Program-made: the position numbers and the translations under genes | Assembly (NCBI GenBank): GCA_003345545.1 | Contig: PRDH01000081.1 | Span: 1-64,000 of the forward strand | Direction of reading: 5' to 3' | DNA length: 64,000 nucleotides | Source: Candidatus Thorarchaeota archaeon | GTDB taxonomy: Archaea; Asgardarchaeota; Thorarchaeia; Thorarchaeales; Thorarchaeaceae | Notes under the pieces: model-generated | What the model was told of the DNA's origin: nothing | Database searches by the model: none | What the model saw: the letters and a program-made list of their open reading frames with translations, nothing else | Shown: one piece after another, positions 12,497 through 62,408 of the stretch | Layout: the number at the start of each line of letters is the position of its first letter | Position numbering within the stretch: position 1 is the first letter of the stretch

Positions 12497-14002
12497 ATGA
12501 CTCTAGAGAACAAGCCCTGCCAGCCTGAGGTATCATCGAGCAGATACGCTCGTATGTTTGGTCTGGAAGGAGCAACATCCGATGCTGTTCGTCTAGTGAA
12601 GATATTATTTGTCCTGCTCCCCGCCTTTGGAGCAAGCTTTCAAATCAGCACCACATTCTGGATGATCTTCATTGCAGAGTCACTAGGAAGCGGCGATTAC
12701 ATCGCTGGGCTCACACTTGTCGGAATCCTTGTTGTCATTCAGATGGCAGTTCAGACCATTCTTGACTATCCTACAGGCGTGGTGGGGGATTGGATTGGCC
12801 AGAGATACATACTGGCCTCTGCCCTCCTCTGCTATGCCGCAGCATTCTGGCTCTCTGCACAGATTGTCAAGGACACTCCGGCTCCCTTCCCCATCTATGT
12901 GGCAATCTATTTCCTCTTCGGACTTGGTGCCTCGCAGGAGAGTGGAGCTTTCAACGCTTGGTTCGATAACAACTATCGGGTAGCAATGCCCCATGATGAA
13001 GGCCGTAAGATGTACGGCGTGTTTTGGGGCCGCATGGGTATGATCTGGCAGGTGTCATCAACACTGGTCCTGATCCCTGGCTCCTGGCTTGCATGGTATT
13101 TTAGTGAACAATGGGTCTTCAATCTCCAGGCCATCTTTGCAGTCTTTCTGGCGATAGTTGTGTTCAGACTCATCCGCGACTTGCCTGGGGTCCGAAAAGA
13201 GCAGGAGAACCGCCCAACCATCAAAGAGTATGGTACCCTACTAAAGGATGGATTCAAGTTTCTGTGGTCCTCTCGGTTCGTTACATACATTGTCCTAGGC
13301 GGGGTGGTGCTATGGAGCACTGGGCCTGTCTGGTGGAACCTGATTCTATTCCCTCTATATTTCAGTTATCTTGTCACAATGGTGGCTGTTTCTGCATTCC
13401 GTACCTTCATCTTCATCCCCGAAGCCATTGAAACCGAAAGAAGTGGTGTGCTGGCGAAGAGGTTCGAGCCAAAGAAATGGATTCCACGTTTCAGGTTCCT
13501 GCAGTTCACGGGTGTCATCTTCTATTTACTTCTGGCGTTGATTGTCTACGTCTTCCCTAGAGCAGACCCAGACACTACTGAATTCGTGAGTGTTCTGATT
13601 CCCTTTACGAGTCTTCCTTTGATTGAGATTCCTGTCCAGACCCTGGTCCCCATAGTTCTCATCTTCATTCTCTTTGTGGCTCTGAACATGTTTGGGGCAA
13701 TTGCAGACATTCTTACTCAACGTGTTATGCTGGATGTCGTTCCAAATCGAATTCGTAACTCACTGTATTCCCTACAGCCCACACTGGTCATGGTGATCTC
13801 AATGCCTCTCATCGTGTTCTTCGGATGGCTCTTGCCTCAATCTGGCGGATTCACACTGAGCCTAGTCATCTGTGCGTTCATCTCTCTCATAGGAACGTTG
13901 ATGATAAGAGAGGCTTTCAAGAACCCAATCCCGGTCGCTGAAGCTGTGGTTGAGGCAGGCAAGAAAGAGAGTGAGGAAGTTCAGAAGATGGAAGTCACCT
14001 AG
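12497..14002 (+). CDS. MFS-type transporter
   Basis: About 12 TM segments, MFS-like architecture. Confidence 0.75.
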   Translation: MTLENKPCQPEVSSSRYARMFGLEGATSDAVRLVKILFVLLPAFGASFQISTTFWMIFIAESLGSGDYIAGLTLVGILVVIQMAVQTILDYPTGVVGDWIGQRYILASALLCYAAAFWLSAQIVKDTPAPFPIYVAIYFLFGLGASQESGAFNAWFDNNYRVAMPHDEGRKMYGVFWGRMGMIWQVSSTLVLIPGSWLAWYFSEQWVFNLQAIFAVFLAIVVFRLIRDLPGVRKEQENRPTIKEYGTLLKDGFKFLWSSRFVTYIVLGGVVLWSTGPVWWNLILFPLYFSYLVTMVAVSAFRTFIFIPEAIETERSGVLAKRFEPKKWIPRFRFLQFTGVIFYLLLALIVYVFPRADPDTTEFVSVLIPFTSLPLIEIPVQTLVPIVLIFILFVALNMFGAIADILTQRVMLDVVPNRIRNSLYSLQPTLVMVISMPLIVFFGWLLPQSGGFTLSLVICAFISLIGTLMIREAFKNPIPVAEAVVEAGKKESEEVQKMEVT

Positions 14003-20117: not shown

Positions 20118-20192
20118 GAGCACAAATCCGTTCTCTTTCCACGGTTTCGGAGATATTCTTATAACCGGAGCTGAGAGCACACCCAAACATAA

Positions 20193-20330
20193 GGGTCGGT
20201 TGTCTAGCTTGGCTACAGTCAGTCATTCGTGACCGGTTGCCAAAAATGATTCTTGGTTTGGGTCGCCGCTTGGCGCCAACCAAGCCCGCAAGAATCCAAG
20301 AGGTCCCCGGTTCAAATCCGGGCCGGCCCA
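20193..20330 (+). tRNA. tRNA-Pro(TGG) with two introns: D-loop (about 20216-20246) and anticodon loop 37/38 (about 20263-20294); CCA encoded at 20331-20333
   Basis: Acceptor GGGTCGG/CCGGCCC, anticodon stem CTTGG/CCAAG with TTTGGG before intron, T arm CCCGG-TTCAAAT-CCGGG; removing both inserts gives 75 nt. Confidence 0.88.
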
Positions 20331-20475
20331 CCACTTCTTTTCGCATCCTCCACTTTCTCAGAAGGTGGAATGATGCATCACGAGCAGAGAGATACAATCA
20401 TCGAGTACGACAAACTCATCTCAACATCGTCAAAAGTCGAAATGCTTATGTTCATCGGGCTCTGAAAATCGTGTA

Positions 20476-38704: not shown

Positions 38705-40801
38705 CTACTTGCAGATTTCGCCATACTTCCTCTTGAAGTTCGCAGCCATCTCCGGAAAACCATACTTGACCCAGGCTCTGTACGCCAAATCGAATGTTTC
38801 CCTTGCCAGTTGAGGGTACTTCTTGTTGTCCAGTCGCTTGCACGCGTCCATTAGTATCCCTACATACTGGCTCGACATCATGGCTACCTCGTAGTCGTAT
38901 TTTGTTGGGTCTTGAACTGCAATTCGGTTGAGTGCAATCACCCTGTCTACGACTTCTTCCAACTCCTTCGCCTTCAAGGACCCCGTGACCAGAGAGGCAT
39001 GAAAACTAGCAGACATTATATCATCCCTGCAGATTATGCCCCTAGAAACAAACCACTCTTGGGTGTCCAATATGACCTCCACGCATCTCTTGAGAACTAC
39101 TATCCTCTCATCGCGCTTGAGCAGCCTTGCAGCAAGCGCAGTCAGTGCAGTTACTGCATTTCCGAGGCTTGTGGCATAGGCCTCTGGTTTTGTTATCTGT
39201 TCTGCGTCAATCGTATTGACGTCAAGCGATTTCATAGCGATATAGATCAGACGCGTTTCATCTTCAGATAAGATGTCTGCCCTTGTAAGAATCGGACTAA
39301 GAGAATTCGCAACTACGAATACCGAGAATTGCACCTGTGCCTTCTGCCATTCTCCGTCTATGGTACTATAGATATCCAAGAGAAACTCTAATGATTGATT
39401 CAGATGCTGTTCGCGAGCATCGCCAGTTGCCAAGAAGTAGTACTCTGCGTAAGCAACACCTAGACTCTGGAATACACTATCTAGTGTGTAGTTGAAGATG
39501 GGAATCTCAGTTGTCAGTAGGCTCCTGAAGTAGTCTCGATACAACATGAGGACTTCCTCGAGTATCTTCCTGCGTTCGTCTATTGTGAGCACAGGGGATT
39601 CAGCCAGGGCGGTAAGAATCGCGATGTAATTCTGCAGCTTCAGAGAAGCTGTGACACCAATCTCGATTCCCTTTCCCTCTTTCTTTAACTCCCATAACAG
39701 ATCCGGGTCAAGCACCCAGTTGATATTTCCAAGGATACCTGTAATCTTCGACTTATATGCTCCTAACTCGTCACGAAAACCATCATAGCTTGTGATTGAG
39801 TAGAGTTTTTTGAATAACTTGCCTCGTTCATCAATAGCCTCAATGAATGTACAATACACATCTGACTTCTCTCTATACATATCGAGTATTCTCGCGGCGA
39901 ACTCCGGGTAATCTACAACTCTCACATCAAAAAACAGAAAACCAAGTAGAAGATGCTCATCATCATTCCTGAACTCAAAATGCTTCACTGCCTCTCTGAA
40001 TGCCCGAGAGTAATCAGCAGGAATGAGGTCCCCAGCTGTAAAGCCTACGAGTGTCCGGGCAAGATCTGTGAAAGGATAGTCCTGTGGAAGAGCTGCGGCA
40101 ATTCTCTTCAGTTCTGCCATCGGAGGTGAAACCGCCTTAGTCATGGTATGCGTCAATGCACCCATCTTGAGACAGAAGACGCTGGCCAGTGCCCCCTCTT
40201 GACTCATCGCCACAGCACATGCTCTATCGAACTCTCCCTGAAGGGCCAATTCAAGTGCATCATCGAGAGTTCCCTTCGCTTTTGTCTTGAGATTATTCCA
40301 CTTCTCAATGGATTCTGCCCTACTGAAAAGTGACTCCACGTCCTGAAGAGCCTTGGAGAGTTTCTTATCTTGCATCAAGACCTTCAGTGTGGGATTCCAG
40401 ATGCCGTATATTGTTTCCGCGAATCCTGTTTCAATGTGATCTCGTGTATAGGTATGAAGAATCTGATCAATTGTCCTTGTGTGAGTGTCACCCACTAATC
40501 CATCTGCTGCCACTAAGTCCGAGTCATCAATTGCATCTGCTATCACTCGGAGGAGGCTATCCATGTAGTCTTCTGCCCTGTCTACAAGTGCGACAACTGT
40601 GTAGCCCTTCTTGCACTCCGTCACAATCAGAGTGTTCTCCCTAAAACCCAGCTTTCTGACCTCTCCGCTCCCTATGACATTACTCAGTGCCTTTGCAGCC
40701 TCTATCAGGGGGCCAAGGATCATCTCACCATCTGCATCCATTGAGCTCTTGATCTTGATAGGGACGCCGCCTGTGGTCAGGACACCGATGAGCCGAATCA
40801 T
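38705..40801 (-). CDS. Protein with N-terminal longin/roadblock-like domain and long helical C-terminal region, unknown function
   Basis: N-term 'MIRLIGVLTTGGVPIKIKSS..ILGPLIEAAKALSNVIG..VRKLGFRENTLIVTECKKGYTVVALVDRAEDYMDSLLRVIADAI' shows beta-beta-alpha-beta-beta-beta-alpha pattern. Confidence 0.5.
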   Translation of the reverse strand: MIRLIGVLTTGGVPIKIKSSMDADGEMILGPLIEAAKALSNVIGSGEVRKLGFRENTLIVTECKKGYTVVALVDRAEDYMDSLLRVIADAIDDSDLVAADGLVGDTHTRTIDQILHTYTRDHIETGFAETIYGIWNPTLKVLMQDKKLSKALQDVESLFSRAESIEKWNNLKTKAKGTLDDALELALQGEFDRACAVAMSQEGALASVFCLKMGALTHTMTKAVSPPMAELKRIAAALPQDYPFTDLARTLVGFTAGDLIPADYSRAFREAVKHFEFRNDDEHLLLGFLFFDVRVVDYPEFAARILDMYREKSDVYCTFIEAIDERGKLFKKLYSITSYDGFRDELGAYKSKITGILGNINWVLDPDLLWELKKEGKGIEIGVTASLKLQNYIAILTALAESPVLTIDERRKILEEVLMLYRDYFRSLLTTEIPIFNYTLDSVFQSLGVAYAEYYFLATGDAREQHLNQSLEFLLDIYSTIDGEWQKAQVQFSVFVVANSLSPILTRADILSEDETRLIYIAMKSLDVNTIDAEQITKPEAYATSLGNAVTALTALAARLLKRDERIVVLKRCVEVILDTQEWFVSRGIICRDDIMSASFHASLVTGSLKAKELEEVVDRVIALNRIAVQDPTKYDYEVAMMSSQYVGILMDACKRLDNKKYPQLARETFDLAYRAWVKYGFPEMAANFKRKYGEICK

Positions 40802-62304: not shown

Positions 62305-62408
62305 TGGACCGGGCGAGATTTGAACTCGCGGCCTTCTGAAGTGTCGGCCTGTGGCTAACACCAGCAAGCTTGCGAATCAGACGATCTACCGGTCTGATCT
62401 ACCGGCCC
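62305..62408 (-). tRNA. tRNA-Ala(CGC) with canonical 37/38 intron (about 62341-62370); CCA encoded at 62302-62304
   Basis: Acceptor GGGCCGG/CCGGTCC including G3:T70, anticodon stem TCTGA/TCAGA, loop TTCGCA + intron, T arm GCGAG-TTCAAAT-CTCGC. Confidence 0.9.

Follow-up and report, generated by a model that had tools for sequence, protein, structure and literature searches.

A tRNA-Pro(TGG) gene of Thorarchaeota with two predicted introns, one of them in the D-loop

tRNA genes with several introns, and introns outside the canonical site, have been described in the Thermoproteales and in two Asgard classes other than Thorarchaeota. Non-canonical positions, 20/21 among them, have been documented in archaea, and the tRNA-Pro(UGG) of Pyrobaculum islandicum, a member of the Thermoproteales, carries three introns, one canonical and the others at 25/26 and 56/57 (PMC4090602). 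For the Asgard archaea, the accessible text of PMC11291895 describes introns, often non-canonical, in 92-95% of the tRNA genes of Atabeyarchaeia and Freyarchaeia; that text discusses neither the endonuclease loop nor intron turnover between close relatives. Close versions of the two-intron tRNA-Thr(GGU) gene of Caldiarchaeum subterraneum differ in intron number, and a mobile element has been proposed as the cause (PMC3293823). On the side of the enzyme, a loop lysine of the A. pernix endonuclease is required for broad specificity and for the use of relaxed substrates, and grafting of the loop onto another endonuclease conferred broad specificity (PMC6379350). A structural study from 2025 treats this loop as crenarchaeal and leaves Asgard archaea unmentioned (PMC12397907).

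The locus described here belongs to a Thorarchaeota genome (GCA_003345545.1) and lies within the first 64,000 nucleotides of contig PRDH01000081.1, the stretch of DNA that was analysed and is referred to below as the window. Thorarchaeota resemble Atabeyarchaeia and Freyarchaeia in being Asgard archaea in whose tRNA genes non-canonical and multiple introns are numerous, but they form a class separate from these two. The gene shares with that of P. islandicum the isoacceptor, the pairing of a canonical 37/38 intron with non-canonical introns and the presence of both bulge-helix-bulge (BHB) and relaxed motifs; the crenarchaeal (alpha-beta)2 endonuclease of the Thermoproteales is counted as a further likeness. 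It differs in the non-canonical position used (20a/21 as opposed to 25/26 and 56/57) and in its host, which is not a crenarchaeon but an Asgard archaeon. As in C. subterraneum, close versions of the gene differ in intron number, but no mobile element was noticed at the Thorarchaeota locus.

Table 1. Features of the tRNA-Pro(TGG) locus, in window coordinates (^, predicted cut within a bulge).
Feature	Position	Strand
tRNA-Pro(TGG) gene, 138 nt including two introns, mature form 75 nt	20193..20330	+
Exon 1: acceptor 5' strand, D-stem 5' strand, D-loop to position 20a	20193..20214	+
Intron 1, 31 nt, D-loop, between 20a and 21; TTGG/CCAA, bulges CT^A and AA^A	20215..20245	+
Exon 2: A21, D-stem 3' strand, anticodon stem 5' strand, anticodon TGG, G37	20246..20262	+
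Intron 2, 32 nt, canonical 37/38; TTTG/CAAG, bulges GG^T and AA^T	20263..20294	+
Exon 3: position 38, anticodon stem 3' strand, variable loop, T-arm, acceptor 3' strand, discriminator A	20295..20330	+
CCA end, genomically encoded	20331..20333	+
TATA-box-like TATTCTTATAACC, about 30 bases upstream of the tRNA gene	20154..20166	+

The original prediction of a tRNA-Pro(TGG) with two introns had the coordinates, the anticodon and both inserts right (Table 1). All seven pairs of the acceptor stem form and the T-arm reads CCCGG-TTCAAAT-CCGGG. Removal of both inserts yields the 75-nt product that had been foreseen; it adopts a cloverleaf in which the acceptor, anticodon and T stems fold, and it matches relatives without one or the other intron. 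The TATA-like box recurs with small changes upstream of most other tRNA-Pro(TGG) alleles. Judged from its sequence, the locus is very probably a genuine tRNA-Pro(TGG) gene that must lose two short introns.

Both introns are bounded by a BHB motif, a central 4-bp helix with two 3-nt bulges at the splice sites; cut positions inside the bulges were predicted by the established archaeal rule. At intron 1, the helix forms between TTGG of the exon and CCAA from the 3' end of the intron and is flanked by the bulges CTA and AAA, which places the predicted cuts between 20214 and 20215 and between 20245 and 20246. The excised sequence (ACAGTC...CCAAAA) is shifted by one base from the insert first proposed, with the same product, and its body is the hairpin CAGTC-A-GTCA-TTCG-TGAC-C-GGTTG. 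The stems named in the original prediction are in place, both GTCA-TTCG-TGAC and the outer CAGTC/GGTTG pairing (with two G.U pairs), but the helix relevant to splicing, TTGG/CCAA with its 3-nt bulges, had been missed. The weight given to a UUCG cap finds no support. The loop is closed by A-T and not C-G, and relatives have CTCG, GTCA or TTAT instead; we therefore regard the UUCG as incidental, and a functional tetraloop was rejected.

Intron 2 combines the anticodon stem CTTGG/CCAAG with the central helix TTTG/CAAG and the bulges GGT and AAT. A GCTTGG/CCAAGC stem, pointed out earlier for this 37/38 insert, is likewise present, with TTTG/CAAG being the helix that matters for splicing. A strict hBHBh' motif would have an outer and an inner helix; at intron 2 the outer helix comprises 5 bp and the inner helix is short, with 2 bp beside the bulges followed by an internal loop in the source genome and in its two nearest relatives. 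The D-loop motif has a weak outer helix that is not contiguous, so that intron 1 is best described as having a relaxed form of the motif. When the naked precursor was folded at 37 C, the BHB fold reached -44.1 kcal/mol against a minimum of -56.8 kcal/mol and so lies 12.7 kcal/mol above the predicted optimum, because the anticodon sequence of the 5' exon can pair with the intron. A caveat of the same kind is that minimum-energy folds of the 37/38 intron often show a competing hairpin in place of the BHB form.

Homologues were sought in 47 genomes of the same family together with named Thorarchaeota assemblies. This search recovered 29 distinct Pro(TGG) sequences with matching exons: 10 with both introns, 5 with the D-loop intron only and 14 with the 37/38 intron only, one of the last group bearing an additional T-loop insert. 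None of the 29 lacked both introns. Since both or either, but never neither, recur in this way, the two-intron gene is not a chance occurrence. The comparative alignment suggested with the original prediction shows each insert to be precisely absent from some relatives. The same protein gene neighbours most Pro(TGG) loci; it encodes a helix-turn-helix protein with up to 91% identity to those of other Thorarchaeota assemblies. Turnover of the D-loop intron is clearest between two loci that are 93% identical over 5.3 kb downstream, one with the intron (L060) and one without it (L057), where the tRNAs differ by the 30-nt intron and a few point changes and the exon junction GGCT-ATGATT of L057 is intact. 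The tree of the neighbouring gene requires a minimum of five switches between presence and absence of the D-loop intron, and at least three of these are forced by well-supported branches. Such a pattern of presence and absence points to intron gain or loss, unlike the behaviour of a structural D-arm.

Conservation of the D-loop hairpin was assessed by pair counting on the structure given above, after alignment of 17 introns taken from both Pro(TGG) and Pro(CGG). The hairpin gave a covariation score of 0.240, compared with 0.144 (sd 0.018) for shuffled alignments and 0.011-0.100 for slid controls. Pairing was found in 86.9% of cells, with two-sided changes in 18 cells versus 8.3 in shuffles. 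RNAalifold recovered only the outer five pairs from this alignment because hairpin lengths and registers vary. For the 37/38 intron, all four pairs of the helix TTTG/CARR were present in 23 of the 24 Pro(TGG) alleles that carry it. Excision of the D-loop intron from Pro(CGG) leaves GTCTAGCTTGGTATGATT, identical to the D-arm in those Pro(GGG) and Pro(CGG) sister genes that have no intron. The similarity of the intron sequences in Pro(TGG) and Pro(CGG) suggests common descent or intron spread.

Could the locus instead be a tRNA pseudogene with a D-loop insertion, another gene supplying tRNA-Pro(TGG)? An insert left in place ought to inactivate the tRNA, and the standard finders do pass over the locus: neither ARAGORN nor the Rfam tRNA model at its gathering score detected a tRNA-Pro(TGG) at 20193-20330. 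The whole draft assembly (82 contigs, 92.9% complete, 5.4% estimated contamination) was searched for a tRNA-spaced anticodon loop and T-arm (TTTGGG, 8-66 bases, GTTCRANTC). Besides the locus itself, this returned matches without tRNA features; the closest T-arm look-alike (C43:12680) was rejected as a second gene, having no tRNA around it. No other intact Pro(TGG) gene, the finding that would have told against the original prediction, was present in the assembly as searched, and the locus is the only tRNA-Pro(TGG) found in it, with the proviso that a further gene could be missing at this level of completeness and contamination. The exons, CCA and TATA-like box are moreover kept across many species, the hairpin covaries, and at least one intron is found in every homologue recovered in the family, all of which argues against decay. 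We consider a pseudogene very improbable; the gene is probably essential to its host.

No better placed is the view that the 37/38 insert is the sole intron and that the D-loop insert is retained as an expanded D-arm of a working tRNA. The insert does form a hairpin and is common to many relatives, but its precise absence from close relatives with the flanking exon bases intact is hard to reconcile with a structural role. Furthermore, both of its ends fall in 3-nt bulges beside a conserved 4-bp helix, as at known archaeal splice sites; an insert of the same type in Pro(CGG) can be excised to give the D-arm of an intronless sister, and archaeal introns at position 20/21 are on record (PMC4090602). 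An assembly or binning artefact, to which the draft state and estimated contamination might lend some colour, is weaker still, as the locus lies inside a 120-kb contig and is contradicted by other, independent assemblies of Thorarchaeota (e.g. JAOUFI010000001.1 and JAEOUM010000054.1), where orthologues stand beside the same neighbour.

Two tRNA_int_endo (PF01974) genes are present in the genome, and nearly all of the 59 related genomes examined likewise have two. The first product, EndA alpha (G000:C12), is homologous over its full length to the catalytic chain of the (alpha-beta)2 enzyme from A. pernix (3p1z_B, E=1.7e-41; PDB 3p1z; PMC6379350, PMC12397907), with Tyr-His-Lys present. Its loop GIRKPK aligns with VEKPRG, so that K-P-K is placed at K44-P45-R46 and has the expected succession of a conserved Lys, then Pro or Val, then Lys or Arg. 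The second paralogue (G000:C16) is without the loop and the catalytic His, and is nearer to other EndA chains than to the crenarchaeal structural subunit. One subunit with the triad and one structural subunit are the pair expected for an (alpha-beta)2 enzyme, and we infer this assembly for Thorarchaeota; the A. pernix enzyme is crenarchaeal, the one predicted here Asgard. An RtcB gene is also present.

Taken together, the observed gene anatomy, motif geometry, covariation, presence or absence in relatives and enzyme genes are best explained by a single Pro(TGG) gene with two BHB introns that are cut by an (alpha-beta)2 EndA and followed by RtcB joining, a reading to which we assign a probability of roughly 0.93. 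In its favour, each intron is exactly present or absent among relatives, the D-loop hairpin covaries, BHB geometry is found at four of four splice sites, the TATA-like box is kept upstream and the genome encodes a matching splicing enzyme and ligase. The gene would be transcribed as a precursor with a 138-nt body carrying both introns. A heterotetrameric endonuclease, its alpha subunit bearing the conserved-lysine loop known from Crenarchaea, would cut the 37/38 intron at its BHB motif and the D-loop intron at the relaxed motif, whose outer helix would be the partly paired D-stem. RtcB would then ligate the exons to the 75-nt tRNA. Cleavage and ligation, and their order, are predictions.

The loop is the less expected part of these findings. 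In aligned Asgard EndA alpha, K-P-[KR] was present in 43 of 44 genomes and the triad was intact in all 44. The sole exception, EndA alpha of G054 (L267), has K-I-S. These counts were taken from the alignment since a scan with the GIRKPK pattern, although matching 100 of 149 genomes, allows Ser at one position and its reversed control also matches some. Our literature search found no published account of a K-P-[KR] loop in Asgard EndA; one key loop survey lay outside that search and an earlier report is possible. The crenarchaeal loop and that of eukaryotic TSEN2 are held to be of independent origin. If the supposedly Crenarchaea-specific loop is general in Asgard EndA, an (alpha-beta)2 enzyme that bore the loop and had relaxed specificity may be older than the divergence of Asgard archaea and Crenarchaea, a proposal for which we judge the odds to be even. 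Were it true, it would explain the proliferation of introns in Thorarchaeota tRNAs and would bear on the independent-origin view.

Non-canonical and multiple tRNA introns, well documented elsewhere, are thus extended to Thorarchaeota, in a series of species in which single introns cleanly appear or disappear, and are tied to an Asgard splicing enzyme whose loop has been taken for a crenarchaeal trait. Since no known lineage is regarded as closer to eukaryotes than the Asgard archaea, their EndA offers a direct test case for the origin of the eukaryotic tRNA splicing complex. In practical terms, tRNA finders that make no provision for D-loop introns miss genes of this type, and Asgard tRNA sets can therefore look incomplete.

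Other tRNA loci were noted in passing. In the same genome, tRNA-Pro(CGG) (G000:C7:13604-13707, L135) resembles Pro(TGG) in the kind of D-loop intron it carries, and D-arm inserts were seen by eye there and in tRNA-Thr(TGT), two tRNA-Arg and tRNA-Glu(CTC); several other tRNA genes have anticodon-loop introns. Of the two tRNA-Arg genes with D-loop inserts, L136 (G000:C16, end 43229) apparently has an anticodon-loop intron too, the other being L213 (G000:C27, end near 13145). The insert of tRNA-Glu(CTC) (L224; G000:C78, end near 39922) measures about 33 nt and lies near position 10, apparently splitting the 5' D-stem strand. Elsewhere among Asgard genomes, Pro tRNAs L067, L120, L121, L132 and L144 combine T-loop inserts of about 30 nt with a 37/38 intron. 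Two 3' tRNA fragments ending in GGTTCGAGTCCCGGTGGCCGCACCA, with no 5' half nearby (G000:C22:3036-3059, L209; G000:C40:2924-2947, L215), are possibly integration-site remnants or split-tRNA halves. Within the window, a tRNA-Ala at 62305-62408 (minus strand; anticodon CGC by eye) is interrupted at 37/38 by an intron of some 29 nt and has G3-U70.
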